Positions 799-48,522 of a stretch of DNA of 64,000 nucleotides are shown in pieces; within the stretch, counting starts at the first letter, position 1; each line of letters begins with the position of its first letter. A program made the translations under genes and the position numbers. The notes below the pieces were generated by a model that was given only the letters and a program-made list of their open reading frames with translations, was not told the origin of the DNA and did no database searches. Origin of the DNA: Porphyra umbilicalis (Eukaryota; Rhodophyta; Bangiophyceae; Bangiales; Bangiaceae). The stretch lies in the NCBI GenBank assembly GCA_002049455.2, contig KV919127.1, positions 1-64,000 of the forward strand. Direction: 5' to 3'.

Positions 799-902
799 GA
801 AAAGCTGGCGGCAGCAACGTGCACGCCGCCGCTGGTGCACAAGTAGTGAACGTTGACGCCGTCGGCTGTGGCGTTGCTGCGCCCACGCACGCACCCCCAC
901 GA

Positions 903-2036: not shown

Positions 2037-2039
2037 CTG

Positions 2040-26142: not shown

Positions 26143-28462
26143 CTACTTTTTTTTTCGTCTACATTTATTCATCACCTTATTCCCGGACCAGTCGTCTGAC
26201 GACATGGTGATCATATTCGCCGTGTCAACAATAGCCTCCTCCGCATCCTCTGCGTCCAACCGCGACCGTACAGCTTCACGAGCGTCTCCCTCTGACGTCC
26301 CCCCAATGATGTCCTGTCCGAGGGAGGTGCCTCGCATCAGCGCAAGCACCTCATCCACCTCATGTTCCACGTTTGCAAAACCGTTGCGGTACTCACCATG
26401 AGACGCAGCGAGGGAGGCCGACATAGCTACTGGGAGGATCGTGGACTTCACCCAACAGTGCGAAATAGATGTTGACGTCACTTTTTCCCACTCCTCCGCA
26501 ATGAGTGTCGCCGCATCCAACAGGTGGGCACTTCCGCGCCCAGCCAGGCCACAGTTTCGTTCCGGGCGCGGTGTCTGGCTCGGGGGCGGCAGAAGGGCAG
26601 CGAGTAGGCCTTGATGGGCGGCCGCGTCGGCCGCGTCGTCGGGCGCCTCAAGCGCCGCCGACCGCGGCGCACCATACACCCGTAGAACATCAACCGACGG
26701 GGCCCGCCACAGGCGCTCATTCTCCGGACAGAAGCCCCGCAGAGCCCTCGCGGGTGAGGGGGACAGCAGAAGCGACGTGAGCACAGGTATGGGGGGAGGT
26801 GGGGGGGGAGGTGGGGGGGCGGTAGAGGCGGCGATGGGCGCGGCACCTGCGGCGTGGGTGACGGGAAAGTCAGACGAACGGGCAAGGACCGGACGAGGAT
26901 GGCCAGGAGGCGGCGCTTGTAGCGCCTCTTGTGCGAAGCAATTACGCCAACGTCCATTGGCTGGTACACCGCCGTCATGTGGGGGGGAAGAAAACATATT
27001 TCCACGTCCTCGGAGCTTAGTGCAACGTCATGGGTGTATGAATTATCCATGATTAGAGCACACTTGGCGCCCCGGTGCCGTTTGCGAATGGCCGGTAGGA
27101 AGACGTCATTCCACCATCTTTCGTACACATGCTTGTCCATCCACGCCTTTTTCTGGTCGAAGTACGGCAATGAGCATTCGTTGCCTTCCCCACGGAAGCA
27201 CAGCGGGCGGGCGGCCGAGCCAATCATGGCGACTGGCAACTTGTGCGTCCCCGTCGCGTTCGTGCATAGCACGAGCGTGACTCTGTCCATACTGCGCATG
27301 GCCCTGGAGCCGCGCGCAAGCCGGCGGTCACGGCGAGGTACGTACAATCGGGAGGGTAGGCACTTATACAACAGCCCCGTCTCGTCCATGTTGTAAATAA
27401 AATCAGGGGGGAAGCTTTCGAGCTTCCGCCGTATATCCTCCAGGGCCGCGGCCGCCTCGGCCAGGTTGGTGCCACCTGCCTGCCCGTGCATGGCAATGTT
27501 ACAGATGTCGTACCGCTTCAAAAACCCGCGGATGTAGCCATGGCTGGCCGTGAAGCCGGTGCTCGACAGCCGCCCGGCGAGCATACACGCCGCCTCCTGG
27601 AGACGAGCGGTGGTGATAGGGATGCGACGGTTCCCCAGCGAGTATACAGCTAAGTACCACTTGTACAGTGAAGTGTCTAGCTCTGGCCATTGCCCTGCCG
27701 ACAGTTTGTCCGTGCCAACGTGTGTTCATCGTTTGGCATGGCGCGGTACTTGGCGGCAGACCGCAAAATCCTCCGTCCCGTATCCTTAGTGATGGGGATC
27801 GGCAGCTGTCGCGAGACCACCGCCCAGGGGACATGAGCATCCCAAAGGCGCACGATCTGTTTTTTAGTGCAGATCGATATCTCCTGTCGGGGCTTGCTCC
27901 GCCGCCTCCGAGCCACCATGCTGGCCGGTTGTGGGCCATTGGCCACTGCCACGTTGTAGCCACGGATCATTGCAGCCGCCTCTGCAGCTCCCCCAGTCGC
28001 CAGTAGTCCTTGACACGTTGCCGCCGCCGCTTGTGCTGCTTCCCGGACAGCATGGGGCCACTCATGCGTCAGTTCTGGCACAGCCCTCTCAAACGCAGCC
28101 TCAACAGTAGCAGATATAGCATCCAATGACGTAGCCAAAGGTGGCGTGGTGTCGGTCGTGCCACCCAGAGGGCGGCAGGGGGGAAGCGAGTGGTCTGGTG
28201 TAGGGGGAGGGAGTGGGGGAGGCGGGAAGGTAGGTTGGGGGTGTGCGATGGGAGGTGCCGTGGTACGAATGGCATGGTTCGGCGGGGTAGGTGGGGAGGG
28301 GGGGGGTGGGACGACCATCGTGACGGGGACGACGGGCGCGGTAACGACGGTCGGTGTGACGACGGCGCGATGGCCGTGGGCTCGACGACGGCGTCTTTGC
28401 CGTTTATAAACGCTGACGGAAGAATTGACACGAGTTAAGTGGTTGAGAAATTCAGAGGTCAA
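26143..28462 (-). pseudogene. pogo/Tigger (CENP-B-like) transposase, frame-broken
   Basis: Read right to left, the first frame has a Pro-rich region and a CENP-B-type helix-turn-helix (KKQIVRLWDAHVPWAVVSRQ). After a one-base shift near 27690-27730 the next frame has a second DNA-binding segment (LDTSLYKWYLAVYSLGN to HGYIRGFLKRYDI). It then has a DDE_1 nuclease with YNMDETGLLYK, LIMDNSYTH and a third Asp in HMTAVYQPMDVGVI. A further frame change or intron between about 26870 and 26720 leads to a C-terminal domain (LIAEEWEKVTSTSISHCW) that stops at 26143. All three catalytic Asp are present, so decay is recent or the shifts are sequence errors. I did not find matching terminal repeats. Confidence 0.85.
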
Positions 28463-31182: not shown

Positions 31183-32388
31183 CTGTCCCTGACGCAATTC
31201 TGGATCAGCGACGCAAAGCTGGATCACCGGAATCGTCGATTCCAGCTCATTTGCCCGTCTTTTTACTGCTTTTTCTCTCTTCTTCGGCGCTGCTACAAAA
31301 ATAAAACAGCGGAGGGGGAGAAAACATACCAAGAGAAAGCCCAGAGGAAGGCGCATCTTTTGCTGTCAAGGGCGCTCGTATGCTCGAAAAAAAACGGAGA
31401 CGGTCGGGGTGGCGCGGAAGGAGGCCGTCCTTTCGGCGCTAAGTGCTCGTAACATTGCAGATCCGGCCGATCGATCGCGGTCGGGATCACAAACCGGTGA
31501 TCCGGAGCAGTGATCGGGGGCCCTTCGCACGGATGGCACTCATCCGCGAGCGCGCACTTTCTCGCCGACGCGTGCACTCGTTGCTGCCAAGTGCCAGCCC
31601 GCGCGCCCTTTCCGTCAACACCCCCTGTCTGTGCCCGGGACAGCGGCCTGCGAGGTGGTGAGGTGCGGTGGTGCGGCCGCCGCGACGGCGCGCGCCGGCG
31701 TGGTGGCAGGGTGGGGCGGCGCGGCTACCGCGACGGCACCGACGACGCGCGCAGGTGTTGTCGCACGGTGGGGCGGGGCGACCGCCACGACAATACCGAG
31801 CGCCGTGCTGTGGTATGGTAGTGCGGCGCGTCCGCCCCGACGGCACCGACGAGGCGTGCCAGCGTGGTAGCAGTGTGGGGTGGCGCGGCCGCCGCGACGG
31901 CGACGACGAGGAGCGCCGGCGTGGTGGCAGGCTGGGGCGGCGCGGACGCCGCGAAGGAGCCACCGAAGCGCGCCAACCTGGCCGCAGGGAGGGGTGGGGC
32001 GGCTCGGGTGATGGCGTAGTCCTGACGCGGGGGCAACGCGTCCTGTGTGCCACAGGCATGGGGAGGCGAGCACGACCGACCAACGCATCGAACACAATCG
32101 CCTGCTCCAATTGACGATCGTCCACAGTTGCCAAGTAGCGTACGAAATCAATCCGATTCGCCGTGATCCATAGTTGCGTCGCCCGTGTCACGGAAGGTCA
32201 TCAATGAAACACAACTTCAAGCTACCAAAAGGACAAGAAGAACGAGAAAAAAGGCAGCACATGCCGTAGACGAAAGAAAGCTCTCCTCAGCGCCTTCTCA
32301 GATCTGTCTTCAGATGTTTCCTCCGATGAGATCCAAAAACGCTATCCTCCAGAGCAGTATTCTTGATCCAGAATTGCGTCAGGGACAG
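31183..32388. mobile_element. 1.2-kb element with perfect TIRs and TA duplication
   Basis: The terminal inverted repeats are identical for 25 bp: CTGTCCCTGACGCAATTCTG then GATCA at the left, and the exact complement at the right. Each is flanked by TA (31181-31182 and 32389-32390). The interior carries degenerate ~60-bp tandem repeats (31665-31960) and no transposase. This fits a non-autonomous Tc1/mariner or pogo-type element. Perfect TIR identity implies fairly recent activity. Confidence 0.85.
31665..31960. repeat. Degenerate ~60-bp tandem repeat
   Basis: Blocks of the form GTGGTGGCAGGGTGGGGCGG followed by GCGCGGCYRCCGCGACGGC recur about five times inside the TA-flanked element. They explain the open frames on both strands here. 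Confidence 0.7.
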
Positions 32389-32390
32389 TA

Positions 32391-33412
32391 CCACGATGAA
32401 CCCGCCCGTTTGGCAGACTGCCGCCGCGACAGATGTCGATAAGGTGTCTGCGACCATGTGCCCTCGGCGTGTTTTAGCCTCTCCATCCCCCGGTTCAAAG
32501 ACTCTTTCTAATATTGACGACGTGCAGGCCCGCGACGGGGTTTGAAGTTTTGTTTGCCCGCGCCGTGCGCATGCCAGCGGATGGCGTCGTCGCCCTGGTT
32601 AGCTTTTTGCGCTTTCGTCTTCCACATCGCAGGCTGTATCATTTTTGTCGTACAGCTCTGGCCTTGTGATACTTGGGAGGCGGTAGCAACGTTGACATCT
32701 GTGAAGTATTTTGCGCGCACGCCGCCACGCTGTACCAGGCAGTCTGTCGGAAGACCTCGCTTTGTCAGCAGCGACCATAGCCGTTCGGCAGGAATATGAG
32801 AGGGCTGCGGTTGCTTGGTGAACAGGTGGAACGGATGATGTTGACGTAGGGGCAAGATACAAGAATGGGTTCCGCGAGGCGAAGAGACGAGAGTGGTTTG
32901 CCAGGCGGGCTGATGTTGTCGCCGCCAGTCAGAGACAGAATTGAGGCCTGGATAGGGACAAGTTGATCTTCAAATGGTAAAATTACTGATATCAACTCTT
33001 GCGCATTCGCCGGAACTACGTGCAGCGCGGTGCATCCCGGGGTTGTCAACATACGCGGCGCGGCCGCGTATGTTGACAAATCGGGGATGCACCGGGCTGC
33101 AGCGCACCCCGCGGCGACCATCACGAGCCAATAGGAGCTTCGAATCGCGGGCCCCGTCTTCTGCGAAAGCGGTCTGCGAAAGGGCCTGAACCGTCCTAGT
33201 AGGCCCGCAACGCCGCCGCCGGGAGCAGTCACCCCCCCACCCGGTGCACCCCCGCCACCCCACCGCGGTGCCCCACGGCGGTGCCCCACAGCCACGACCC
33301 CCCCCCCCCCCCCCCCCCCCCACTTCCCCCATCTTTTCTCCCCCCCCCCCCCACCCCCCCATCTTTTCTCCCCCCCCCCCCCCCCCCCCCCTGCCCCCCC
33401 CCGACAGCGACC
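32391..33412. other. Intergenic with 38-bp hairpin and long poly-C runs
   Basis: Arms at about 33022-33059 and 33063-33100 form a near-perfect hairpin with a 3-nt loop; the inner block ACATACGCGGC pairs with GCCGCGTATGT. From 33298 the leader of the dCMP deaminase gene is almost pure C: a run of about 24 C, then ATCTTTTCT blocks between further C runs. Confidence 0.7.
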
Positions 33413-34924
33413 ATGATCATTGGCCTGACGGGCCCCCCCTGCGCCGGCAAGGCGACGGTGGCGGCGTGGCTCGCCGCCACCTCCGCCGCCGTCCCCGTCG
33501 CGACGGTGCGCGAGTTGCTGTCGCCCGACCGGGCGGGCCTCCTCGGCTCTGCGTGGCGCCCCGACGTCCACGTCGTCGTCCCGTCGGTCGAGCTGGGGGG
33601 GGGGGCGGACCTCGCGGCGCTCGCCAAACGCCCCTACTTCCTCCTCGTCCGCGTCGACGCGCCGGCGCTCGTGCGGTACGGGCGGTATGTGGCACGGCTG
33701 GCGGGGGGGGGGGGGAGGGGGGAGGCGGGGGGGGGGGGGGGGCGCCAATGGAGGCACCGCAGGGGACCACCCCGTGCCGGGGTGCTTGTGCCCGCCAGCC
33801 GGCGGCGGCGGCCGTGGGGACCCCGCCACCGCCGGCAGCGACGGCAGCCGCGGCGACGGCGACGGCGGCAGTGGCGGCAAGGCGGCCGCCGCGGCGCCGA
33901 CCAGGCCCCCCAGCGGCCCCCCCCCGCCGACCCGACGCGCGCGCACCCCCACCCCGACTGCCCCCACTCCCTCCACGCCTTTATCCGCGCGGACGATCGG
34001 TGGCGGTCCCCCCCCCCCCCCCCCCCCCCCTTCCCCCGACGCCCCCCCCCCCCCCCCCGCCCCCGCCCCGCCGTCACCATCCCCAACGCGCACGCGGGGC
34101 TCCCGCCCCTGCACGCGGCCCTGCGGGCCGCGGACCTCCTCTCCCCCGCGCACCGGCGCCCCCCCTGGGACGCCTACTTTATGGCGCTCGCGCGCCTCGC
34201 CGCCGCGCGCACCAACTGCATGCGCCGCCGTGTCGGCGCCGTCGTCACCGTCGACCGCCGCATCGTGGCGACGGGCTACAATGGCACGCCCGTCGGGGCG
34301 ACCAACTGCGCGGATGGGGGGTGTGAGCGGTGCAACGACGTCGGCGCCTTCCGCCGCGGCGTCGGCCTCGAGCTGTGCGTGTGCCTCCACGCCGAGGAGA
34401 ATGCGATTATCGAGGCGGGGCGCTTGCGCTGCGGGGGGGGGGTCATGTACACCACCGTCTTCCCGTGCATGGCGTGTGCCAAGAAGATTGCGCAGGCGGG
34501 CGTCGTGCGGGTCGTGTATGGGGAGCCGTACGCGACGGACGGGCAGGCGGCGCGGTTTTTGGGGGGGGTCGGCGTCGAGCTCGTGGCGTATAGGGGGGGG
34601 GGGGGGGGGATGGGCAAGACGCCTGGGTCGACGACGTGTCGGAGGACGGGTGGCGGTGACGCGCTGGGGGGGGGGGGGGGGGTACGCGCCCGTGTCTGCC
34701 CCTGCCCGTTTTGCTTCTTGCTTGCCGTTAGGGAGGAGCCCTGTCCCGTTTCTCTTGCCAGGCGACCGGGCTCCTTGGGGGGCGCGGTGGGGCGCAACCG
34801 CACCCATCGACTCGCGGCCCACGCCGGCACGGCCTGGGGGCCTGCCCCCCGGCGTGCGTCGGTCCGCGGCAGCGGCGGGCGCCGGCGGCGCGGCGCCCTC
34901 GTCGTCGGGCGTGCGCGACGGTGA
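33413..34924 (+). CDS. DCD1: Deoxycytidylate deaminase with N-terminal kinase-like domain
   Basis: dCMP deaminase makes dUMP, the substrate of thymidylate synthase. The C-terminal half is a clear zinc deaminase: WDAYFMALARLAAARTNCM, VGAVVTVDRRIVATGYNGTP, NCADGGCERCND, CLHAEENAIIEAG with the His ligand and catalytic Glu, and FPCMACAKKI with two Cys ligands. The N terminus has a P-loop-like GLTGPPCAGKATVA, matching the nucleotide-kinase-like domain fused in yeast-type Dcd1. The last Walker residue is Ala rather than Ser/Thr, so it may not bind ATP. Between them lies a low-complexity region rich in G and C runs (about 33700-34080) that may contain an intron or frame errors. The natural stop is probably soon after VELVAYR (34590), because the remaining tail follows G-runs and looks non-native. 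Confidence 0.88.
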   Translation: MIIGLTGPPCAGKATVAAWLAATSAAVPVATVRELLSPDRAGLLGSAWRPDVHVVVPSVELGGGADLAALAKRPYFLLVRVDAPALVRYGRYVARLAGGGGRGEAGGGGGRQWRHRRGPPRAGVLVPASRRRRPWGPRHRRQRRQPRRRRRRQWRQGGRRGADQAPQRPPPADPTRAHPHPDCPHSLHAFIRADDRWRSPPPPPPPFPRRPPPPPRPRPAVTIPNAHAGLPPLHAALRAADLLSPAHRRPPWDAYFMALARLAAARTNCMRRRVGAVVTVDRRIVATGYNGTPVGATNCADGGCERCNDVGAFRRGVGLELCVCLHAEENAIIEAGRLRCGGGVMYTTVFPCMACAKKIAQAGVVRVVYGEPYATDGQAARFLGGVGVELVAYRGGGGGMGKTPGSTTCRRTGGGDALGGGGGVRARVCPCPFCFLLAVREEPCPVSLARRPGSLGGAVGRNRTHRLAAHAGTAWGPAPRRASVRGSGGRRRRGALVVGRARR

Positions 34925-35847
34925 CCGCCGCCGACGCTCGCCGGCCACCCGGACCGGAGATCCACTGCGGGGGTGACGCTTCCCTTGGCCAATGCCCCTT
35001 TGCTGGCCCGTGGTGGACGGGCCGCTCGCGAGCCGCTCGCGAGCGGCCCGTCCCCCGAGCTCGGGGGCGGGGGCGCGCCGCCCAACAGAGACACCGTGGC
35101 GACCTGTGGCGCGGCGGGCGCGGCGGGCGCGGCGGGATCCGCCACGCCAAGTCCGTGCAAGGGGGCGCGCCCGCCGGGCCCCGCTGACAGCTCACCGGGT
35201 GGGGGTGCCGCGGACCCGCGCGACGCGCGTCCGCCGCTCGTGGCGTCCCCATCCCTTGACGGCTGACCGGCACTGTGAGCGGCGACCGCCCACGTCACGG
35301 GCGCCCGCCCCGCCTGCGCCATCCATTCCGTGGGTAGGGCGGTGCGGCTGCGGCCACCGGCAGGGCGCTACGTACCGCTTCGGATCGCGGTGCTCGCCGC
35401 GAGCCCCGCTGTACGTGTACGCCCGTGCCCGCTGTTCGCGGCTGCTCCTCCCTCAGCGCCCCAGGACACGCACGCTGGTCGCGCGCGGGGCCGGCAGCGG
35501 CGGCCACCCGTCGACCACCGACGCGGCGGTCACGTGCCCCCGCGACTGCCACGCACCCGCCCGCCCGGGGCTCTGGCGGCGAGTGCCGTCCTGCATGCCA
35601 TGAGCGGCTCCCACGGCGCACGTGGGGGGGGCACGCCGCGCCAGTGAGCACGAGCACCCTGACGGTGACCCCAGCGCCATTCATGAGCGACCACCAACGT
35701 CCGTGGCGCGCGTTGCCGCCTCCTCCTCCCCCCCGCACCGTGCGTGTGTGGCCCGACGTCTCCGTCGCCTTTATCAAAGGTTTTGCCACGACCTCTGCTG
35801 GTGGGCACCACCACCACCCCCCCCCGCCCTCCCCTGCACGGCCAACC
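34925..35847. other. Intergenic with strong hairpin
   Basis: No gene is recognised. A perfect hairpin has 18-bp arms (GGACGGGCCGCTCGCGAG at 35015-35032, complement at 35036-35053) and a 3-nt loop, followed at once by the palindrome CCCGAGCTCGGG (35053-35064). It could be a transcription-end structure or a cruciform-forming site. Confidence 0.6.
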
Positions 35848-38009
35848 ATGGCCCACCGGTTCCGCCCCGGCGCCGCGCGCCGCGGCCGCGGCCGCCGCCC
35901 GCCGGCGGCGCGCGTCGGCCGCCTCCTCGCCGCCGCCGCGGCCGCCGTTGCGGCGGCCGCGGCGCTCCCCCCCCCACGTCCGCCGCGGCGCCGACCTGGC
36001 ACGAGCTGGCCGTGACCAACCCCCCCGCGGGCCGCGAGGAAACGTCCCTCGCGCCCTGCGGGGGCCCCAACCTGTGCCTCATTGGCGGCCGCGGGCGCCA
36101 ACGCGTCGGCGTCTACAACACGGCGACGGGGGTGTGGGCGGCGGGCGCCGCGCCGCCCGTTGAGGTGCACCACTTCCAGGCGGTGGCGGGGCCCGGCGCG
36201 CCCGCCGACGGGTGCGTGTGGGTGGCGGGTGCCTTTACGGGCGCCTTCCCGCGGGAGCAAACGGTCGGGAGCATCCACACCTACTGCGCGGCGACGGACC
36301 GGTGGGCGACGGTGGGGGGCGCGATTCCCCGCCCCCGGGGGGGGGGGGCGCCGCGTGGGTCGGCCGCCGCCTCCTGCTCGTCGGTGGGAATGTGGGCGGC
36401 CACGGCGCGCACGCAACGTCGGTCGGCTGGGTCGACGCGTACGACCCGGCGACGGGCGGGTGGACGCTGCTGCCGGATATGCCGCACCCGCGGGACCATT
36501 TTGGGGTGGGCGTCGTCGGCGGGCGCCTCGTCGCGGCGGGGGGGCGGGACTCGGGCGTCGCCAACTTTTTCGACGCAACGGTCGCGGCGGTGGATGTATG
36601 TTGGGTGCCCTGTTGCGGTGTGTCACCCAGCGTGAGAGCGTCACCCAGCGTGAGAGCGGTGGACACACAGAGAGGGGAAGTTGCTGCGTGGGTCGGGCGA
36701 CTGGCCGCGATGGGAGGCAGCCGTCTGACTGGTCCGACCTGCCTTGCCCGCCTGTGCTGCTGCTGGTGACCCCCCCTGCCTTTGTACGTGTGCACCACGC
36801 CCCCCTGCGGTTCCCCCACAGGTCATGGACCTGACCACGTTCATGTGGCTCCCCGCCGGAACCGCGTCGGATATGCCCAGGCCCCGCGCCGGCGGGGGCA
36901 CGACCGTCCTCAACTCGGCCGTCGTCGTCGTTGGCGGCGAGGGCCACGGCCAAGCGTGGCCGACGGTCACGTCCCTCAACGTTGCGACGGGCCGCTGGGC
37001 CACCCTCCCGCCCCTCGCCGCCGGTCGCCACGGCGTTGGCGCCGTCGCGTGCGGCGGCGCGCTCTACACCGCCGCGGGCGCGGGCATCCAATCGTGCTGC
37101 GACTTTCGCCGCTCGACGGAGGCGCTGTTTGTGCCAGCGTCGTCGGGCGCGCTGCCCCGCCCATGTGGTGGCGGCGACGGCCCGCCGGTGGCGCCGGCGC
37201 CCACGGCGACGGCGGTCGCTCCACCGCCCGCTGGGGGTGAGACGGGCCCGATCGTGACGCCCGCGCCGCCGGGCGGCGTTGACGTGACGCCAACGGCGAC
37301 GGCGACGGCAACGGCGGCGCCGTCGACGGGCGTCGGCGCCACGCCAACGCCCGCCGCCGCGTCGCCGTCGCCGTCGCCGTCGGCGGCCGCCAACGCCACC
37401 GACGACGCCGCGTGCTTCCCCGCCGACGCGGCGGTGGCGGTGCCCGGCGGCGGCTCCGTGCGCGTGGCCAACCTCCGCGTCGGCGACGCCATCACCGTCG
37501 TGTCGGCAGCAACGGGGCGGGTGCGGACGTCGACGGTCCTCCTCTTTTCGCACGCGGTGGGCGGCGCAGCCGACGACCGCAAGACGTACCCGTTTGTGGA
37601 GCTGACCGTTGCAGGGGGAGGGGGGTCGGCGCCGAGCGCGCCGCGGCGCCTCCGCCTCTCGGCGGGCCATCTCCTGCCGGTCGGGGCGGCCAAGCGCTTG
37701 ACACCCGCGCGGGCTGTGGCCGTTGGCGATACGGTGTGGGTGGTCGCCACCACCACCGCCGCCGCGTCCAACGCCACCGCCTGCGCCGCGGCGCCCGCTG
37801 CGGCGGCAGCGGTGCCCGCCACGGTCACGGCCGTCGGCCAGACGGCGGCGCGGGGCTTGTACAACCCCCACCCGGCGTCGGCCGACGACCGCCTGCTCGT
37901 CGACGGGGTGGTGGTGGCCGACACGACCGACGCGCTGCCGCGGACGGTGGCGGCGGCGGCGCTCGCCGCCGCCCGTGCCGTGGCAGCGGTGGCGGGGGGG
38001 TGGACGTGA
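35848..38009 (+). CDS. Secreted kelch protein with C-terminal Hint (hedgehog-type) domain
   Basis: ATG 35848 opens a basic leader plus Ala-rich hydrophobic helix (RLLAAAAAAVAAAAALPP), a probable signal peptide. Kelch motifs follow: LCLIGGRGRQ with VYNTATGVW, CAATDRWATVGG, AYDPATGGWTLLPDMPHPRD with VVGGRLVAAGG, and VVVGGEGHG with LNVATGRWATLPPL and GRHGVGAVACGGALY. A GT-AG intron at 36596-36821 is in phase 0. After an Ala/Thr/Pro-rich linker comes a Hint domain (from Cys at 37413): ACFPADAAV, VRVANLRVGDAITVV, RLSAGHLLPVG with the active His, and YNPHPASADDRLLVDGVVV. Hint domains self-cleave before the first Cys. Frame changes occur at the C-run near 35967-35975 and the G-run near 36338-36350; homology continues on both sides, so I suspect homopolymer errors. 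Release of a kelch propeller by Hint cleavage is inference. Confidence 0.85.
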
Positions 38010-38401
38010 CGGGGGGGGGGCTCGCGGGCGAGGGGGGCGTGGGCGGGGCCGCCCGCCGCCTCCTCGCCGCCCTGGCGTCCGCGTGAGAGGGTCCATCGGG
38101 GGATGCGCAAACTCTGTGAGCGACCTCTGGCTGTTTTCGAAGGCATCGTGCGCTACAGTACGTTCCTGGCGTGGGTTCGCACAGGCAAACTGTCGTTTCG
38201 CGAATCTGACTTTCGAACTTTGGGGGCCGCATTGGATTCTCGTGAAGAGGCAGCTCTAAAGTACACAAGGACGACTATATTCAGCGCCACGGGCTAATCA
38301 GACTGAGTGGGGCAGGTGGTCACCAGATGCCAGGACAGACTGTGGCCTGTCGCGGAGCCCAGCCGCGGGCGGGTCGCAGCCCCGCGTCGGTGGGTGAGCT
38401 C
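38010..38401. other. Intergenic between kelch-Hint gene and F-box copy
   Basis: A short ORF at 38103-38297 has no recognisable features. From about 38340 the sequence matches the 3' flank of the F-box/LRR-like gene at 52278. Confidence 0.5.
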
Positions 38402-39508
38402 CTAAAAGTAGGGGCGCGTCGTGGCAAACTGGCCTTCCTCCCACCACGACACGCACAGCCCGGGCGGCGCCTCGCGCAGCCACGCCACCACCTCGGCGGC
38501 GGTCGTCCCATACGGCGACGCGTCCGCCTCGCCGCCGTCGGGCGTCGACCATTCGCCGTCGTCCGGGTGCTCCGTGCGCCACCCCAGGGAGCAGAGGCGC
38601 GGGTGCCGCGGCGCGACGGCCACAACCTCGGCGCGGCTCAGCAGCGACAGCGCGGGCGGCCGCGAAGACCACCCACACGACCACCGCCTCGAGCGCCGAC
38701 GTGCCGCTGGCGGCGGTCCAACACCGCCAAAAGGCCGTCGCCGGCTGCGGGGAGCGCCGGTACTGCAAGCCGACGCACAGCCGCACGGGGGCGGGGAAGG
38801 GCGGCCACACGGCGGGGAAAGATGGGGCCGGGCGCAACCGCCTCCTCGGGGAAAAAAGAGGGACAGCTCCCGCAGCGACGGCAGCAGCGTGAGGGTTTCA
38901 ATGCACGTGCCGGACGCCAAGCCGTGCGCGAGCCCCACCCCCAGCGCCGTCAGCCGGTCGAGCGCGGCGAGCGCACACGGCCGCCAGCGGTGGATAGTGG
39001 CAGCGTGGTAGGGCAGCGACGACACGAGCCCCCACACATCTGCGTCGGTGCACACGAGCCAGTCGCCACGGTTTTCGTAGCGGCCCAGGTGGAGGGAGGC
39101 GGGGAGCGCAGCGCCCGTGTTGACAGCGTCCACCACCCAGCGTAACGGGGGCGGGCGGTCGGGAACGGCCGGCAGCCACAGCTCGTCGAGGCGTCGGCCG
39201 CGGCACAGCGCCGCCAAGTCGCACACGGGGCCGGCCCAGTGGACGGAAAACAGGCGCACGCTCGACAAGTCGGGCAGCTCTGGGAGGCCCACCCCCCGCA
39301 AGGCGTCGACTTGCAGAAGCGTGTCGTTCCAAGTGCAGCCGCGCCAACCACGGCGCCGCCGCCGCGAGCGCGGCGCCGTCGGCACCGCCAACCGTGGCGG
39401 CCTCACACCGGCGCTCCCGCAGCGCCGGCAAGGCGCGCAATGCCGCTGACGGGCCCCCCCCCCGGCGGGCGGACCGCCGCCGTGAGCCACTCGTCGAGCC
39501 ACGCGCTT
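38402..39508 (-). pseudogene. Truncated F-box/LRR-like copy
   Basis: This is a segmental copy of the C-terminal two thirds of the gene at 52342-54105. Matching stretches include VRLFSVHWAGPV, LDELWLPAVPDRPPPLRWVV, TDADVWGLVSSLPYHAA and the identical C terminus TTRPYF. Homology stops abruptly at about 39508, so the F-box-like start is missing. Relative to the intact gene there are compensating frame changes: the stretch after LRELSLFFP reads out of frame until RPPALSLLSRAE, where the original frame returns. The 5' side, near NDTLLQ, is also shifted. It is therefore a 5'-truncated duplicate and probably non-functional. Confidence 0.88.
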
Positions 39509-39744
39509 TCATCCGTAGCAAACACCCGTGTGATGACGGCTCCCCTGCTCCCGCTTTGGGCGCCGCCGTCGCCACGGGTCTCGGCCGCGCCGGCACTGCC
39601 GCGGCCACACAACGTCCGCGGCTGCAGCGGTTGCACCTTTCCCACCGTCGCCCCTCCCCCCCCCCCCCCCTCGCGTCGCTCGTGTTTGCCCGCCGTCCCC
39701 CCCCCCTTTGGCGTTCCCCCCCCCGCCCCCCACAAGCCGCCGCC
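39509..39744. other. Short spacer and pyrimidine-rich leader
   Basis: The spacer is C-rich, with runs of 14 or more C near 39657-39670, and ends in a GCCGCC-ATG context at 39745. Confidence 0.4.
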
Positions 39745-42410
39745 ATGCCCGAATCCCGCCGCGCCGCGGCGGCGGCCGTGGCCAGCGGCACCACGCCGCC
39801 GCGGGACGTTGTCAAAGCGGGGCGCGCCAAGCCCGGCGCCCGCGCGCGGGCGGCGGCCACCGCCACCTCCACGGCGGTGGTGTCCCGCCGCGTCCTATTG
39901 TCGGCCCCGGCGGCCGCCTCGACCGCCCCCCCGCCACCGGGGGGGGGGGCGCCGCCACCGCCCCGCGCCGCGGCCGCCCGCCGCCGCCCACCGACGCGCC
40001 GCCGTCGGCGGCGGCGGCGCCGTCGGCGGCGGCGGGCGGCCGACCCCCCCCCCCCCCCGCCCTCACCGACGTGGCGCGTCGGGCATCCCCGCCCGCCGGC
40101 CGTCGCGCGCCACCCTCTGCTCCCGCGGCAGCGCGGCGGCGGCGGCGGCGGCGCGCCGCGCGGCGCCGCGCGCGGTGCGGCGGCGACCATTGTCAGCGGG
40201 GGGCCGCTCCCCCCGCCCCGCCCCCCCCCCCCCCGCCGGGCGCCGCCGGCGGCGCGGGTACCCCCCGCCACCGACGACGCGTTCCCCCCCCCCCCACGCC
40301 GCCGCCACCACCCTCACCGCCGCCGCCGCGCACACGTTGACGACGCCGACGCGCCGACGCGCGCCGCGGCGGGTCGCCCCGTCGCCGCCGCCGCCGCCGC
40401 CGCGCGGGCGGCGGCGGGGGCGGCGGGCCCCGCCCCCCGCCTCGCCGCCGCGGCGGCGCACGGCCGCACGGCCGTGCGCGCCGACGGCGCGCGCGCGGCG
40501 GCGGCGGTGGCGGCGGCGGGGGGGCGGGGCGGGGGGGGCGTTGGTGGACCTTGGGGGGGGGGGGGGGGGCTCCTCCCGCCGCCGCTGCTCGCCGCCGCCG
40601 CCGCGGCGGTCACGTGGGAGGGGCGGTCCGTGACGCGCGGGGGCCGCCCCCGCGGCCGCGTCCGCCGCGGCGGGGGGGGGGCGGCCGCGGGCGCTGCCGC
40701 GGCGGCTGCGGCGGGCCCCGCCTGGGCGCGCCACCGTGGGGGGGGGGGGGGGGGGCGCCGCCGACGGCGCCGCGCCGACGCGCCCGTGGCGGCGGGGCCG
40801 TCGGCGTTTTTGGCGGCCGTGCCGGCGGGGGTGGAGGCGGGGGGGGGGACGTCCCGGGGGGGGGGGGGGGGGGGGGCCTAGGGGGGGGGGGGGGAATGGG
40901 GGGGGTCCCCGCCCGCCCCCACGCGCGTGGCGGGATGTGGCCGCGGCGGCGGCCGCCGCCGTCGACGCGCCCGTGGCGGCGGCGGTCGGCGGCCGCGCGC
41001 TGCCGCCGCGGCCGGGCGGCGGCGCCGGGGGGGGGGCCTGGGGGGGGGGGGGGGGAATGGGGGGGGGTCCCCGCCCGCCCCCACGCGCGTGGCGGGATGT
41101 GGCCGCGGCGGCGGCCGCCGCCGTCGACGCGCCCGTGGCGGCGGCGGTCGGCGGCCGCGCGCTGCCGCCGCGGCCGGGCGGCGGCGGCGGCAGCGGCGGC
41201 GGCGGCGGCGGCGGCGGCGCCCCGCCGTCGCCCGCCGACGCGGCCGCCGCGGCCGTTGCGCGAGCGGCGGCGGTGCTGATGGCGGCCGCCCCGCACCTGC
41301 CCCCCCCCGCCCGCGCCGCGGCGGCCGCGTCGTGGGCGACCGCGGCGGCGGCGGCGGCGGCCGGCGGCGGCGCGGCGCTGTGCCGCGCCCCCCACTCGGC
41401 GGCGGCGGCGGCGGCGGCGGGGGGCGGCGGGGGTGGCCCCGCCGCCGCCGCCGCACCCGCCGCGTGTGCGCGGCGCTGCGGTCGGGCGTGCCGGCCGCGA
41501 CGGCGGCGGCGGCGGTGCCGCGCCTCCCCGCCGCCGGCGCCACGCCCGGCGGCGCCGCGTGCGCGGCGGCCGCCGCCGCCGCCGTGCTCACCGCCGCGCC
41601 GCCAGAGGGGGGGGGTGCCCCCGGCGCTCGCCGCGTCGGCGGCCGCGGTGTTGCCGGCGGCCGTGCGCCGCGCGGCGGCGGCGGGTGGTGGTGGTGGTGG
41701 CGGGGGGGGGGGGGGGGAAGGGGGGGGTGCGCGTCTGCCCCTGGCGAGCGCCCTGTAGTGTGGGGGCGGGGACGCGCGGCTGCCCGCCGCGCTCGCCCGC
41801 ACCGCCGCGGGGGTGGGGGGCGTGGGGGCGGCGCCGGCGGCCGCCGCCGCCTCGTCGACGGCGGCAGCGGTGGCAGTGGTGTCGGCGGGCGCGTGCCGCC
41901 GGGCCTCCTCGCCCCCTCCTCCGCGCGGTGGCGGCGGTGTCGTCGGGCGCCGCCGCCCCCGCCGCCCCCCCCGTCGGCGGCGTCGTCGCCGCGGCGGCGG
42001 AGGCGGCGGCGGCGGGGGCGGCGCTCGCGGCGGTGGCGGCGGTGGGGGTGCCCGGCGACCCCGGTGCGGTGGCAACGGTGGCGGCGGCCGCCAATGTGCT
42101 CGCCGCCGTGCCCGTCGGCGGCCGCGCGCTCGGCGTGGCGGGCCTGACGGCGGTGGGGGCGGGGGTGGGGGCCCCCGCGAGGGGGGTGGGGGGGGGGGGG
42201 ACACCCCACCGCGCTGGCGGTGTGTGGCCCCCGGGGTGGGGGCGTCCGCCGACGCGGCGGCCGAGGGGGAGGGTCGCGCCGACGCGGAGGGGGGGGGGGG
42301 TGGCCCCCACTGGTCGCCCGCGTCGCCGCGGCGGTGGCGGCGGCGGGGGCGGGGGGGGTGGCGGCGCGGCTACGGCCGGGCGTACGGGGTGGGGGGAGGG
42401 GGGGGGTAGA
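39745..42410 (+). CDS. Ala/Gly-rich locus, possible long low-complexity protein
   Basis: ATG 39745 has a strong GCCGCC context and opens MPESRRAAAAAVASGTTPPR, then a long Ala/Arg/Pro-rich frame. Natural-looking Ala-rich helices continue in other frames after poly-G runs (for example WRDVAAAAAAAVDAPVAAAV at about 41090-41150, and AALAAVAAVGVPGDPGAVAT near 42030-42075). Either several homopolymer errors split one long protein, or the whole locus is composition-driven open frame. There is no recognisable domain. A 162-bp tandem duplication lies inside. The C-terminal boundary is uncertain. Confidence 0.35.
40865..41188. repeat. 162-bp tandem duplication
   Basis: GTCCCCGCCCGCCCCCACGC occurs at 40905 and again at 41067. 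The units are near-identical from the preceding G-run through CGCGCTGCCGCCGCGGCCGG, and 162 bp is exactly 54 codons. Confidence 0.85.
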
Positions 42411-42740
42411 CGCCACTGCCGGAGCGGCGGGGCACGGTGACGACCGCGGCGGTCACGCCCGCGCCGCGTGCGTGCGCCATTTCTGTTGTGGCCGCTGGAT
42501 CAACCCTGGTGGCGCCCACCATGGGCGTGCTTCCATGGTGGAGGCACGGCGGCTCTCGGTGTGGTGCCCGCGCCGCGCGTGCCGCTGCTCGGTGGGCCGT
42601 TTGGGTTTGTGGCTCATGGGATTCCTTCCTACTTTACGCCACCCCACCCACCCCCGTCGTGGCGGTCCGACGCTTCAGACGGTTCCCACGTATAGCCGCG
42701 TGCAGGGGCGCGCGCCCCCCCACCCTTCTTCCCGCGCGCG
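42411..42740. other. Intergenic between Ala-rich locus and VWA gene
   Basis: No gene was recognised. This is the downstream flank of the VWA gene. Confidence 0.4.
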
Positions 42741-43916
42741 TCAGCACTTGAGGCCGACCATATCGACCGGGCGGACGGAAAAGAGCGCGCCCGTCGCGAG
42801 CACCTTGAGGGTGCACCTGAAGAAGAGGGCGTTTGCCTTGGCAGCGTCGCACGCGGCCGCGTCGACGGTCACGCACTGGCGGAGGGTGAGGCTCTTCCCC
42901 GCCTCCACAAATGCCGGCAGCGCGGGCGTGTAGGCGGTCGTAAAGACGCCCGCGCAGTCATGGAGCGATGACGTGATTTCCAGTTCCAGGGCGTCAATGA
43001 GGCCGAGGAGCGCCGCGACTTCGGTGCCCGTGCCGGGCACGAGCTTCGCCATGATCCCGCGGGTGCCGTCGGTGAGGGACGTCCCCTGCCCCGCCGCAAT
43101 CGCGGCGCCCCTCGACGGGGGCTTGCACGACCCCCAGCTGTTGCGTGTGGCGGGGCGAAACGGTCGGTCGAGGCCGCCCGCGAGGCTGACGCCAATGACC
43201 GAAATGCGGGCGGCGCGGAGGGCGGCGAGCACCGACGACCGCGTGTGGCGGACGCCGGGGGCGGGGCACGACGGCTCGTGGCCGGGGACGTCGCCAAACC
43301 AGGCGACGAGCCGCCGCGCGTCGGACGACCACCCCACGCGCGCGTCCGTGGCGAGCGCGTGGAGGGCGACGAGGTTGGCTTCGAGCGCGTCCCCGCCGCC
43401 AGACGCGTTGAGGTCGGCGCTGTCCACCGCCGTCTGCACGGCGCGCCGGTTGGCGGTGAGGGGCTGGTTGAGGCGGAAGCCAAACTCCGACTCGTCCCGG
43501 TACGAGGCGACGCCAAAGCGGACCGTGGTCGACACGGCCCCGCGGGCGTTCATGAGCGCCGTCATCTCTTTGCGCACCGTGGCAATGGCGCTGCGCATCG
43601 AGCCGGTCACGTCGGTCAGCAGCATCAGATCATCCTTGGGCACCGCCCCGCCGTCAATGACCACGTCGCCGCAGAGGGTGTCGCCGGGGCGGGCGCGGCG
43701 GAACGACAGGCGGGGGAGGCGGGTGACCTTGGACGGTTTGGGCGACGGGCCGACGGTCGGCGCGGGGCAGCAGGCGGGGACAGTAAAGTCAATCTCCGGC
43801 CGCCGCGGCGGCACCGACCGCTGCGCGGTGGCCGGCGCGGGGGAAACGACGCACACCGTGACGGCAACGGCGGCGGCAGAGGCGGCGGCAGCCACCAGGG
43901 CACGGGCGCGGACCAT
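42741..43916 (-). CDS. Secreted von Willebrand factor A domain protein
   Basis: This is an intact 391-residue protein without introns. The N terminus is a signal peptide (MVRARALV, an Ala/Val core, then PATAQ). A Pro-rich segment follows, then a VWA/integrin-beta-I-like domain. The metal-ion site is visible as LLTDVTGSM (DxTxS variant), ASGGGDALEAN and WFGDVPGHEP. The C-terminal part has paired Cys (HDCAGVF, LRQCVTV, ACDAAK, FRCTL, ending GLKC), which suggests disulfides and an extracellular location. Such proteins in algae and protists are surface or wall adhesins. The ligand is unknown. The start at 43916 is the only Met preceding the signal. Confidence 0.88.
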   Translation of the reverse strand: MVRARALVAAAASAAAVAVTVCVVSPAPATAQRSVPPRRPEIDFTVPACCPAPTVGPSPKPSKVTRLPRLSFRRARPGDTLCGDVVIDGGAVPKDDLMLLTDVTGSMRSAIATVRKEMTALMNARGAVSTTVRFGVASYRDESEFGFRLNQPLTANRRAVQTAVDSADLNASGGGDALEANLVALHALATDARVGWSSDARRLVAWFGDVPGHEPSCPAPGVRHTRSSVLAALRAARISVIGVSLAGGLDRPFRPATRNSWGSCKPPSRGAAIAAGQGTSLTDGTRGIMAKLVPGTGTEVAALLGLIDALELEITSSLHDCAGVFTTAYTPALPAFVEAGKSLTLRQCVTVDAAACDAAKANALFFRCTLKVLATGALFSVRPVDMVGLKC

Positions 43917-44502
43917 GGTGGTGACGAGTCGGGCTGCGGACGCAGGGGGAGGGGGTCCGGCACGCGCGCACGCCGCGGGCGCCGCTTTTGACAGGGGTGC
44001 TCGCCGCTGCTGTGGACGGAGTGTGGGGTGGCCGCTGCGGCTGGCCTCGGTCGCCGGCGGCTGCCCTTCTTATACCGCTGCGGGCGAGGCGGGCACCTCG
44101 GCTGGCGTCGGCCAGACGCAGCGAACGCACGCGCCCCGTGGACACCGGGGCGTGCCGCTCGCCCCAAACGTTTGCCGCTGCCGCGGCGGCGCGGACACCC
44201 CCGTTGGAGGGCAACCACCTCGACGTGGACGCGCGCGCCGGGGTTGCGCCCGCGCCACAAGGGCGCCCAGACCCGTGTCCGTGGCCTCTGTGCTGACCGC
44301 CCGCCTGCGGGGGCCGCCACCCCACCCCCGCCGCCACCCGCCCGCCACAGGGAGACACCGTGGACACGCTGCGGGGGGGCGGCGCTCCCACGCCGTCGGG
44401 CGGCGGTGGCCCAACGGCGCCACACGGCGGCGCTCCAACGGTGCCCGGCTGGTGGCGCGTGGCGGCGGCCGCGGCGCTTTCCCGCCGTCGGCTTGGCCGG
44501 GG
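43917..44502. other. 5' flank of VWA gene, no gene seen
   Basis: The sequence is GC-rich with shadow ORFs only. It presumably contains the VWA promoter. Confidence 0.4.
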
Positions 44503-45968
44503 ATCATCAGAAACCTGTGCCCACCGGTCAGACCGTCCATCAATATGCTCGACCGGCGGTTGACGCTTCTGACCGGCATCTCAACAGGGCTGTTGACCGG
44601 CCGGTTAGATGAGCGTTTTGAGCGGTAGCGAGTGTCGCGTCAGAAGGAGACACCTTCGTCCCGATGTTTGACGTCCTCGCTCAGAGGGCGTGACAGCTGG
44701 GGTGGGCGATGGCGAGATATTGTGCTTCTCATAAAAACTGAATCCGCAACATCCGATTCAGCATCATGAACCGCCCCCTAAGCCAATGAAACAGTGATTT
44801 TGCAACGGAAGCTGATGCACCGAGGTTCAGTTTTTGCGAGAAGCACGATAATTCCAGCTCTCACCTTCGAGTGTCGTGCAAGGATATAGATAACACATCA
44901 GGACATCCGCAACATAATTCACGACGCTTGGGAAGTTACATGTGTACTGATTGATAATGCTGGGTTGGCCTTGAACTTAATCGCTTACGATCCAGATTCA
45001 GCGGATCCACCTATTGGCGTGCGCTGCGTGCCATGAAGATGACACAGCGACAAGAACGACTGACAGTGAAACACAACAGGTGCGGGCGGCAGCGATCCCC
45101 AGGCCAGTCCCAACATCGGCGTTACCACCATACATCCGCACTTGCTCCTGTGCGGCGGGGACTCCAACCACGCTCCACATCCTCCTCTTCTTCCCCGCCC
45201 TCGACCACGACCCCCCCCCGACCCCTTCTCGTATGCAGTAGCTATATCACGGAGCAGCCCGTTTCCCTTTCTCTCTTTGGCATGATCTTGTTGCTACCCG
45301 ACTATTCACGGTTCCTTTCCCCGTACGTTACACTGCGTCTCGGCGGACACTCTTTTGTCGTCCCCGACTCTTGTTAGCAGAGATGTGCTGCTTGCTGGTG
45401 ACTTTGAGCTTACGGTTGGCCGTGTGAGAATCGGACGATCCCTTCCGCTTGAGCAGTTTATGACTCTGATGCTTCGTTCCTACTGCGTGGCTTTGGCATT
45501 CTGCTCAGCCTGTCTGTTTGTCACTGTCTATTCTCTGCATTGCTCTCTTTTTCGTGGCAACTGCTCTTGCTGTTTCTTCGAGTCGTTTGTGTGCTGCTGA
45601 CTTTGACACGGGTGACCGACACAGCAGAAGTGAATTCGAGCACGATGTTATAGCTCAAAACTAGAAGCGTAATACAACCGAGGCCAGAGTTACTATGACT
45701 GTAAGCAAAACTGCAATTGCGTTTTTGCGTATGAAGTCCAATTCGACTGCCCAAGTACGTGTCAGTCGAGATCTACAAAGCCGCGAGATTGCACCAACGG
45801 GCGGCCACCCAGGCACATGCATTGGTCCATGCCCCTTTCAGTGACTGGGGGGGGGATGTTCTGGTTAGTGTCCGGTTGAACCGTCCATCTGCCTGACCGG
45901 CCGGTCAATGCCGGTTGGTTTTCCGATCAAGTCGCCCAGTTGACCGGTGGGCACAGGTTTCTGATGAT
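44503..45968. mobile_element. 1.47-kb element with perfect 28-bp inverted ends
   Basis: The 28 bp at 44503-44530 (ATCATCAGAAACCTGTGCCC then ACCGGTCA) are repeated exactly in inverted form at 45941-45968. Just inside each end are multiple GACCGG / CCGGTC motifs, including GACCGGCCGGTC at about 45889-45900, which resemble subterminal transposase-binding repeats. A second imperfect inverted pair (about 44716-44744 and 44821-44850, TGCTTCTC plus AAAAACTGAA) is nested inside. There is no transposase and no clear target duplication. Confidence 0.75.
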
Positions 45969-47282
45969 ATTGAACCAGCCTACTTCGCGGCGGCCAGCCG
46001 CGCCGGCAGCGACCCCCCCCCCCCCCTGCGTCGACGCGCGCGGCCGCCGGCGCGGCGGGGCGGCCGTCGGCCCCACCGACGCGCGGCCGTCGACGACCGA
46101 CGCGGCGCCATCGTCAGAACAGTGGACACTTGAACGGGAGCCTGAACGGGAGTCCCGTTCAAGAAGCCCCTGAACGGGAGGTTTCCCGTCCAGGCGTCTG
46201 TGCTGTAACAAAGGCCTGAACGGGAGGAGTTCCCGTTCAGGGCAGCTGTGCCAGGCCCTGAACCGTCTCGTGGCTGATCGCGAGGTCATGCAAGACTGTC
46301 GCACTAACTCAAGCCAATGATATCCCTGCAATGGATTGCGAAGACGTAAACTGTCCAGGTCGGGGTCCTGCACGGGCCTGGATGCCTCTTGCCATCGACG
46401 ATGCGCTGCACAAGAAGTCGGCGCCAAGGCGTGTTCTCGGACCTGAGGTGCACGCACGAGACCGCGGCCGCCGCTCCAGAACTTACCCCGAGTTGCTCTG
46501 TAAAGTCGATCGATGACCGAAGATTTATGTACTTCGTGAGACGACGAATGATGTCAAGCATATATGAGAATGGCCGGCCAATAAAAGTGAGCTGTGCCAC
46601 ACGTAGCCCTCGTGGTAGGTCGGACGTCTCCATGGAAAAAACGGACTTATCTGGTCGATTGGAGACAACTCAAGAGTGACAGGCTAAAGCCTCCGATGAC
46701 CTGACCCTCCACCACCGCGCCGCCGGCGAGCAAGACCACTGCAGTCGTCATCCGAGATCGGAGCGCCCGTGTCGATCTCTCCCGGCTCTTGCTGTCGTGC
46801 ACCAACGTCCCCCTCCCCAACTGGGCGACCCCCTACCATGCTGGGTCTTTGAGCCAGTCTTCCAACAGGTATGTTGTGCGCTGTTTGTGGTTGGATCCTC
46901 TCCTGTCTATCGTTCGTTTGTCTGTCATTGCGTGTCTTCCATCGAGGTCATTGCACCGGATGTTGCACTACCGTACAGGGAGCCCTCGTTCACTGCCATC
47001 TGTGGTAGCTCGCATCTGACTCGTGCCTACATGTGCTACCGTCCATGCATGTTTTTCCCCTGCGTATCGTGTATGTCTTTCTCCCACTTCCTGATTGGAT
47101 TTCTCTCTCCCCCCTCCTCCCTACGTCCGTCCCCCGCTTCCTGCCCCCTATCTCGTACGTCCCCTGTTTTGTCCCGTCGTATCGTTGCTCTTGTTTCTTA
47201 GTCTTCCCCTCTCTCGATATCTCGAGCTCTCGTTTGATGTGGGTTTGGATGGTACGGCATCTGTCGCGGTCTTTGTGCCTTG
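45969..47282. other. Intergenic with GAACGGGA hairpin cluster
   Basis: Perfect palindrome TGAACGGGAGTCCCGTTCA at 46143-46161, an imperfect one at 46169-46194, and CCTGAACGGGA pairing with TCCCGTTCAGG at 46215-46241. The region 46790-47260 is pyrimidine-rich and leads into the 270-bp dispersed repeat. No gene is recognised. Confidence 0.65.
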
Positions 47283-47556
47283 TTCTCGGTACTACCTGCC
47301 GACTGGCTCCCCCACTTGTGTTGCTGCCGCCGTTGGTACATGGTCAGCTATGACGGGTGCACCGTTTGGTTGTCCTCATGGCCGTACTCCCATCCGTAGT
47401 CCCTCCAGAAATAAAGCAGAGCAGCGTAAACGAACAGTGTGCATGGGCCGCCAGTAACCTGTCATCGTCTAGAGATTAGCGCAATAATAATCGACCCTGG
47501 TTAACATGAGTATTAAGGGTGTGTCTCGCGATCTGGTAATGTCCGACCTCGAGATC
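47283..47556 (+). repeat. 270-bp dispersed repeat, copy 2
   Basis: Same-orientation copy of 18130-18401, followed in both places by short GAACGGGA-type sequence. It ends ATTAAGGGTGTGTCTCGCG, similar to the terminus TTAAGGGTGTCG of the element at 50143-50795. Confidence 0.75.
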
Positions 47557-48165
47557 AGGTCCGTGCACCTGAACAACGTTTGTAACAGGAGTTCCCTTGT
47601 TCAGGCGCCGTGCCGTAACAGGGGCCTGAACGGGATTTCCTCCCGTTCAGGATGACCATAGTTCTGACGATCTGCCGGTGGGGGGGGCGTGAGTCAGCTC
47701 CCCCCCGCGCCTTTGCCAGCCGCCGCCGGGCCCCATGATGGCGGCCGCCAGTTGACAGCGGACGTGGCATATAGGAGGGTGATATATAACTGGAGTGCAT
47801 ACAACCGGATATTGACAGTATTCCATCGAATCTGGCTGATGCGCATCAGGCCCATCAAAGATAACTTTCGATGGGCCCTGCGATGCGCATCCTGGCCCGC
47901 ATCGCACCCATCGAACCGATGGAACGCCCCAATTCACCCAACGACGGGGCAATATTATATCATAGGGCTATTTTTGATGCCACGTGCAGAATTCTCATGC
48001 CAGTATCCAATCACCGCGCTACATGTGGCGCTTTGCGATAGCTTCTTCATTGCACTTGAGGTCGGAGGAACGGAGATACGGGCCTTTGAAGTTTTCCCCG
48101 ATCGAGGGCCTCGTCCGAAAGTCGGGCTTGCAGGTGTCCCAGACGTCGACTTCTAAAGTAATCAT
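47557..48165. other. Intergenic, palindrome-rich
   Basis: Hairpins lie at 47568-47605 (CCTGAACAA with TTGTTCAGG) and 47625-47651 (CCTGAACGGGA with TCCCGTTCAGG). At about 47838-47915 there are overlapping palindromes: GATGCGCATC twice, and GGCCCATC with GATGGGCC. No gene was seen. Confidence 0.6.
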
Positions 48166-48325
48166 TCCAGGCACGTGCGTGCAATACCCTGGCCTTCAGG
48201 GCGGTGGCGCGCTCGGCGACGCATCGACACGGGGCACGCCGGCCCGCCCCATGGCCGCGAGCGTGCACGGGGGCTTGTACAGCCACGTTGCCGTGGCGGG
48301 GGGCCCGCGGCGCAGTGGGGCCAAA
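48166..48325 (+). repeat. Fragment of the ~680-bp MITE-like family (copy B)
   Basis: It starts CCAGGCACGTGCGTGCAATA followed by CCCTGGCCTTCAGGG and matches the left end of copy D. Similarity stops near 48303-48325, so it is a truncated copy. Confidence 0.75.
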
Positions 48326-48522
48326 CCCGGGTACCTTACAGAATCGTGTTTTTGTGCTAAATGCGTGCGCGCACGCGTGCAACCCAATCCGGAAATCGGC
48401 GTGAACGCATGTTCTCTGGCCTTTAGGTCAGGGTGCTCTCAAAGTGTAGTGATGCACACATATACTTAGATCAAGGGAGTTGCTCTCCGTTTCAGAGGTG
48501 ACAGTCTGCATTCGTGTCCTCA

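Follow-up and report, generated by a model that had tools for sequence, protein, structure and literature searches.

A kelch-Hint gene in the red alga Porphyra umbilicalis and its family of Hog domains with a putative natural His303

Introduction

Genes in which kelch repeats and a Thr/Pro/Ala-rich linker precede a Hint domain (K+H genes) have been described in the red algae Cyanidioschyzon and Cyanidiococcus, which carry 11 and three copies, respectively, while Cyanidium has none (PMC9812998). The Cyanidiophyceae proteins have been termed non-Hh Hog; 17 Hog genes are counted in Cyanidioschyzon and 10 in Cyanidiococcus, and eight of these 10 are expressed predominantly in haploid cells (PMC13353863). 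Hog frames have been known in Porphyra since 2008, two each in two species, and the Cys of motif J is replaced by Ser, Thr or Asp in the red-algal sequences (PMC2362128, Burglin). The kelch-Hint architecture is not new, as it is already published in other red algae. We found no report of it in a mesophilic red alga among the literature matches listed.

The chemistry of Hog proteins is known from animals. In the Hint domain of fly hedgehog, D303 is the general base that couples both steps of the reaction; the D303A variant keeps cleavage by DTT but not full cholesteroylation, and an engineered D303H variant keeps its structure and cholesterol activity, gains >200-fold with coprostanol and uses a wider range of sterols (PMC9163320). 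H374 is required for cholesterolysis in human SHH; there, the amount of cell-associated product falls drastically when H374, F377 or R381 is changed to alanine, and the same change at P379 mainly lowers total protein (PMC7242414).

Here we describe a kelch-Hint gene in a 64,000-nucleotide stretch of the Porphyra umbilicalis genome (hereafter the window; contig C367 in an assembly of 665 contigs and 83.8 Mb) and compare its Hint domain with the family encoded by the same genome and with the hedgehog proteins of animals.

Results

Layout of the kelch-Hint gene

The window holds a real kelch-Hint gene on the forward strand. Its features are as follows.

35848-35966, + strand: start (ATG at 35848) and signal-peptide-like leader in frame 1, Arg-rich, then Ala/Leu-rich, as judged by eye
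35967-35975, + strand: C9 homopolymer, first frame change; the frame of paralog C316 is open across it
35991-36335, + strand: kelch repeats part 1 in frame 0 (Kelch_6, PF13964, E 9e-7, 29.1 bits, cut-off 25.3)
36337-36348, + strand: G12 homopolymer, second frame change; the frame of C316 is open there
36341-36595, + strand: kelch repeats part 2 in frame 2 (Kelch_1, PF01344, E 3e-10, 40 bits, cut-off 20.1)
36596-36821, + strand: intron of spliceosomal type, phase 0, with GTATGT donor and CCCCCACAG acceptor
36822-37154, + strand: exon 2, last kelch repeats, with Pfam kelch family matches each below its curated cut-off
37155-37412, + strand: Ala/Pro/Thr-rich linker of 86 residues (Ala 22, Pro 20, Thr 13)
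37413-37928, + strand: hedgehog-type Hint domain (PF01079, E 1e-11, 45.2 bits, cut-off 29.7), its end set by hand from the alignment with 22 paralogs of the genome
37413-37415, + strand: nucleophilic Cys, Hint residue 1 (Cys in 23/23 aligned domains)
37551-37553, + strand: His at the site corresponding to D303 in fly hedgehog, putative general base (His in 23/23)
37659-37670, + strand: S-x-x-H (SAGH), equivalent of TXXH (His 23/23; Ser 10/23, Thr 13/23)
37929-38009, + strand: short, Ala-rich tail as read in the assembled frame; it aligns with helix 1 of the hedgehog sterol recognition region, with A/A/R at the positions of H374/P379/R381
37994-38086, + strand: probable true C-terminus in the other frame after the G7 run (37994-38000)

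An earlier note on this DNA had described a signal peptide, at least four kelch motifs, an Ala/Thr/Pro-rich linker and a complete Hint domain in a single gene. On inspection by eye the leader resembles a signal peptide, the kelch repeats were recovered by Pfam, and six of them with GG-type turns can be counted by eye, which is enough for one propeller. The linker has the composition expected from that description, and the Cys codon at 37413, the GD turn, the SAGH motif from 37659 and the LLVDGVVV end of the Hint domain are all present; the PF01079 search that the note had proposed scored above the curated cut-off. The one-gene arrangement is supported, with the fusion also kept in a paralog on contig C316; the assembled frame is not continuous. 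In a Pfam scan (E up to 1) of 35991-36335, 36341-36595 and exon 2, kelch families alone were matched upstream of the Hint domain, and no Hedgehog signalling domain was found.

Several other frames of the window were annotated in passing. A secreted-looking protein with a VWA domain is encoded at 42744-43916 on the reverse strand, with Integrin_beta VWA as the best match over the cut-off and no Hint match. A long GC-rich frame at 33281-34921 (+) encodes a dCMP/cytidine deaminase domain, a frame at 26481-27584 (-) encodes a DDE_1 endonuclease of the transposase type, and between 40001 and 42000 the G+C content is 90%, and both strands contain long low-complexity frames that overlap. Separately, the light-harvesting protein of locus L009 best matched the LHC chain of 7y5e (E 4e-64), and the LHC family of the genome is small (10 PF00504 matches). 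As 7y5e is a Porphyridium entry, both observations point to a red alga.

Frame changes coincide with G/C runs

The assembled gene changes frame at the C9 run (35967-35975), at the G12 run (36337-36348) and probably at the G7 run (37994-38000), so that the leader and the kelch part lie in different frames and no uninterrupted protein can be translated from the sequence as assembled. The whole protein is thus predicted from the paralog C316. With two, probably three, frame changes in the assembly and two further kelch-Hint loci in the genome (C205 and C172) that are truncated and broken, the window copy might be a decaying pseudogene of the kelch-Hint family that makes no working protein. We consider this quite unlikely, as every frame change lies at a G/C run, of 9, 12 and 7 bases, and G/C homopolymers are common places for assembly errors. 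The window contains 101 G/C runs of at least 8 bases. In C316, a single open frame spans the first two break points, which in our view makes homopolymer assembly errors likelier than a pseudogene.

The leaders of the window gene and C316 are similar, and 60 of 109 aligned residues are identical in the first kelch part (35991-36335), 46 of 76 in the second (36341-36595) and 55 of 103 in the kelch part of exon 2 (36822-37154). The intron of C316 has the identical position and phase, its donor being GTACGT and its acceptor CACAG, and both the intron signals and the active-site residues of the window copy are intact. When four segments were summed over 451 codons, the differences between the window gene and C316 at codon positions 1, 2 and 3 numbered 150, 139 and 208, and a chi-square test on these sums gave p 2e-6, although the strong GC bias at third positions lies outside its model. 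This excess at the third position is as expected for coding sequence and, like the intact intron signals and active-site residues, speaks against decay.

The end of the gene depends on the last run. The stop lies about 26 residues past the Hint domain in the assembled frame and about 52 in the other frame. The frame beyond the G run, which stops at 38086, reads VDVTGGGLAGEGG and resembles VDVSGGLLEGGG of L016 and FDVTGGLLHNGAG of L017. Because of this likeness to the tails of two other Hint genes, the true end of the protein may be at 38086 rather than at 38009.

Hint domains form a large family in the genome

We searched the genome with PF01079 and obtained 80 matches, 77 of which were over the curated cut-off, some only together with in-frame neighbors; match counts for families of this size are lower bounds. 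When same-strand neighbors within 1 kb were merged, about 77 Hint loci remained on 63 contigs. Some loci form near-identical pairs, for example L024 and L025, which may represent alleles or recent copies; since such pairs and the lower-bound counts pull on the total, the gene number is approximate. The loci can be clustered: contig C243 carries seven Hint loci within 20 kb (31984-51783) on both strands, a local Hog array.

The earlier note had suggested a search for other algal genes with kelch upstream of Hint, and such genes were found here and are described in Cyanidiales (PMC9812998). C316 (locus L033) shares the kelch part, the linker and the Hint domain with the window gene, with 48% identity when residues 1-390 of the exon 2 query are compared. 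The truncated, broken kelch-Hint fragments on C205 and C172 share 98% identity along 852 bases. At L038, the broken kelch-Hint fragment (1380-2999, + strand) also carries an in-frame tRNA-synt_2d match (24.4 bits, cut-off 19.8), and L039 holds a near-identical kelch-Hint fragment.

Other domains precede the Hint domain elsewhere. We surveyed with Pfam the upstream parts, some of them trimmed, of 16 Hint genes besides that of the window (L012-L018, L022-L024, L026, L028, L030, L031, L033 and L037), in addition to the broken L038 and L039; L019, L020, L021, L025, L027, L029, L034, L035 and L036 were left out. Three of the 16 heads matched a family over the cut-off, namely imelysin in L030, kelch in L033 and fasciclin in L037. 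The remaining 13 had no Pfam family over the cut-off, and 12 of the 16 had no match at E up to 0.01, with one weak match below the cut-off in L028. NCBIfam models gave no match for three proteins. The imelysin head (Peptidase_M75, two stretches) is in frame with the Hint domain of L030 (C21, 5099-7750, + strand) and is possibly iron-related. Two fasciclin domains are in frame with Hint at two loci, on C145 and C100; the fasciclin-Hint coordinates are 274-2169 (+) for L037 and 153567-155048 (-) for C100. The frame that holds the Hint domain of L035 has two fasciclin matches by coordinates.

The order of kelch repeats, Thr/Pro/Ala-rich linker and Hint domain in the window gene is the one that defines K+H genes in PMC9812998. 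Both here and in Cyanidiales, these red-algal genes are multicopy, and the likeness is one of architecture. In contrast to the Cyanidiales genes, the gene described here has one intron and lies in an 84 Mb genome with one open-frame paralog and two broken fragments. The earlier note knew of no characterized kelch-Hint protein; K+H genes are published (PMC9812998), but 'characterized' is a fair limit, as we found no biochemical work on one among the literature matches listed. The Hog proteins of red algae and protists described by Burglin in 2008 (PMC2362128) likewise combine a variable N-terminal part with a Hint domain and a tail, an adduct region there and a putative one here, and have the Cys of motif J replaced, by Asp in the window copy. 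Whereas that work reported two Hog frames in each of two Porphyra species, a single genome here yields about 77 Hint loci with kelch, fasciclin and imelysin heads.

The Hint domains resemble hedgehog and carry His at the D303 position

We aligned 23 Hint domains, including that of the window gene, from the approximately 77 loci. They were mostly the best-scoring ones, so that a count of 23/23 leans to well-kept domains, and they are not independent, as L022, L027 and L031 are 91-96% alike in DNA. The alignment does not include L025, which agrees with L024 at 98% of 1875 bases, nor L034, L035 and the two broken loci L038 and L039. All 23 domains have the nucleophilic Cys, the TXXH His and, within an FSH, FTH or WSH motif, a further His that falls at the D303 position.

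A profile built from the 23 domains matched fly hedgehog structures in the PDB with E-values of 1.1e-24 (6td6), 9.4e-24 (6tyy) and 7.3e-22 (1at0) and human SHH with 2.6e-20 (7e2i). The window Hint domain as a single sequence had tau as its sole PDB match (E 0.19). In the profile alignment, the algal His of the FSH type is aligned to Asp in 1at0 and 6td6 and to His in 6tyy. Judged from these sequences and from PMC9163320, the aligned Asp would be D303 and 6tyy the D303H form. The aligned red-algal Hog domains thus appear to carry naturally the 'base swap' His303. The 6tyy structure and the 23 algal domains share a His at the matching place, but there it belongs to an apparently engineered animal variant and here it is natural. 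D303 is dispensable for thiol cleavage of the fly Hint domain, yet the position is invariant in the algal alignment, which suggests selection on the second step.

The window gene has PF01079 over the cut-off together with an N-terminal Cys and T/S-x-x-H, two of the features expected of Hog proteins. It shares with the Hog parts of fly Hh and human SHH the Cys, T/S-x-x-H and an alignment into the sterol region. We rejected its identity as a Hedgehog protein, which differs in having a signalling domain, where none was matched here in the scanned pieces, in having Asp303 in place of the His at 37551, and in a complete H-P-R set in place of A/A/R. An intein was also rejected, as the best profile match to inteins was far weaker (0.0079) and there is no C-terminal extein. 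As for viral or prokaryotic relatives of the Hint domain, none was confirmed by tblastn in pattern scans: a scan of viral contigs with the 23-domain alignment gave 25 pattern matches and one of genome contigs with a second alignment (A2) gave 90, none of which was tblastn-confirmed, the patterns being short and the scans correspondingly weak.

The tails resemble the sterol helix in part

The profile alignment to 6td6 continues beyond the Hint domain into the sterol recognition region. We placed the human residue numbers (PMC7242414, PMC7906309) via the fly hedgehog alignment and by residue spacing. On this numbering, the equivalent of H374 is present in four of 23 domains, and those of P379 and R381 in 19 of 22 each; the position of F377 is Phe in none of 22 and Leu in 20. 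The last three counts are out of 22 as L021 is cut there. The three positions of H374, P379 and R381 read A, A, R in the window copy and A, V, R in C316, and a second sterol helix (HWY) was not seen by eye in the tails. Across the family, the tail thus appears to resemble the sterol helix in part, and less so in the kelch copies.

The earlier note had argued that the short tail leaves little room for a sterol-binding region and makes hydrolysis likelier. This is doubtful for the family, since the profile aligns into the sterol region and the D303 position is His in 23/23, but the window tail keeps only one of the three H-P-R residues, in line with the doubt about sterol.

Fate of the predicted thioester

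The gene would encode a non-hedgehog Hog protein in which six kelch repeats form a secreted propeller, followed by a flexible linker rich in Ala, Pro and Thr and, at the C-terminus, by an autoprocessing domain of the hedgehog type. Once the protein is in the secretory pathway, its Hint Cys would attack the preceding Ala-Cys bond in an N-to-S acyl shift to form a thioester. The His found in place of Asp303 would then activate a second nucleophile, which would displace the Hint part and release the kelch propeller with a modified C-terminus. The Cys, the TXXH His and the D303-position His in 23/23 domains, taken together with the activity of the D303H fly variant, speak for an alcohol as acceptor, possibly a sterol, rather than for plain hydrolysis, and the alignment into the sterol region with the P379 and R381 equivalents points the same way. 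Against a sterol stand the rarity of H374, the lack of Phe at F377, the loss of the Pro in both the window copy and C316 and the short assembled tail. Weighing these points, we put at about even the chances that the protein is secreted, undergoes the N-to-S shift at Ala-Cys and passes its kelch part on to an alcohol that His303 activates, the leading candidate being a sterol or a lipid of that kind. Across the family as a whole, the acceptor would be an alcohol, with a membrane sterol or a comparable lipid as the most likely one, less clearly so for the window copy. Cholesterol production in red algae has been described as very strong, though Galdieria and Cyanidium make ergosterol and 24-ethylsterols, so that cholesterol is not universal in the phylum (PMC8172173). 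The propeller itself would probably bind a glycan or a wall partner at the cell surface.

The main rival, favored by the poor tail of the window copy, is plain hydrolysis, in which water resolves the Hint thioester and an unmodified, soluble kelch propeller is released. Besides the missing H374 and P379 equivalents, this is consistent with the fly Hint domain alone, which cleaves with water or hydroxylamine and has no cholesterol activity (PMC4695875). We regard it as somewhat unlikely, as the D303 position holds in all 23 domains a His capable of acting as a general base, although thiol cleavage in the fly tolerates loss of the base, and the tails of the family mostly keep the Pro and Arg of the sterol helix.

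A third possibility is that a hydroxyl or amine in the extracellular matrix, from a wall polysaccharide or protein, resolves the thioester, so that the propeller becomes covalently fixed to the wall. Fasciclin domains are usual in matrix proteins, and other Hint genes of the genome carry them; in addition, the His base could activate any hydroxyl. This outcome appears very unlikely, since there is no known acceptor site and the tail is still sterol-helix-like at Pro and Arg in 19 of 22 domains each.

Discussion

Transfer to an alcohol activated by His303, the reading we prefer for the kelch-Hint protein, would have a wider meaning if it applied to the Hog family of this alga. The Hog-tailed secreted proteins of red algae, with kelch, fasciclin, imelysin and many unknown heads, might use the natural His303 chemistry to acquire C-terminal sterol or lipid anchors; we think this unlikely and offer it as a conjecture. 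Hog chemistry would then have a second use, outside animals and across a whole genome, in anchoring proteins generally to the surface, which is speculative to the same degree.

Fasciclin proteins are GPI-anchored in land plants. We detected no match in the genome at E up to 1 for three families of the GPI pathway, PIG-T (PF04113), GAA1 (PF04114) and PIG-A (PF08288), whereas STT3 was found in the same genome (1e-97). The controls of this search were prokaryotic, with PF04113 matched in one and PF08288 in two, none over the cut-off, and PF04114 matched nowhere. Red algae have been described as being without GPI-anchor biosynthesis (PMC3797821); in passages of PMC6032885 and PMC5164836, the subject of GPI in red algae does not come up. 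The absent GPI families, the cholesterol producers and the fasciclin-Hog loci together allow the idea that Hog tails serve as a lipid anchor replacing GPI. This replacement, suggested by a correlation within one genome, seems unlikely. Among the literature matches listed, we found no paper that ties Hog domains to the missing GPI pathway of red algae.

By itself, the kelch-Hint gene extends a published red-algal architecture, and the family setting, with about 77 loci, His303 in the 23 aligned domains and three GPI-pathway families without a match, matters more. If a lipid is transferred, lipidation of the hedgehog type would be an old means of anchoring in general use and not peculiar to animals, and domains with a natural His303 would provide ligation domains that tolerate a wide range of sterols.
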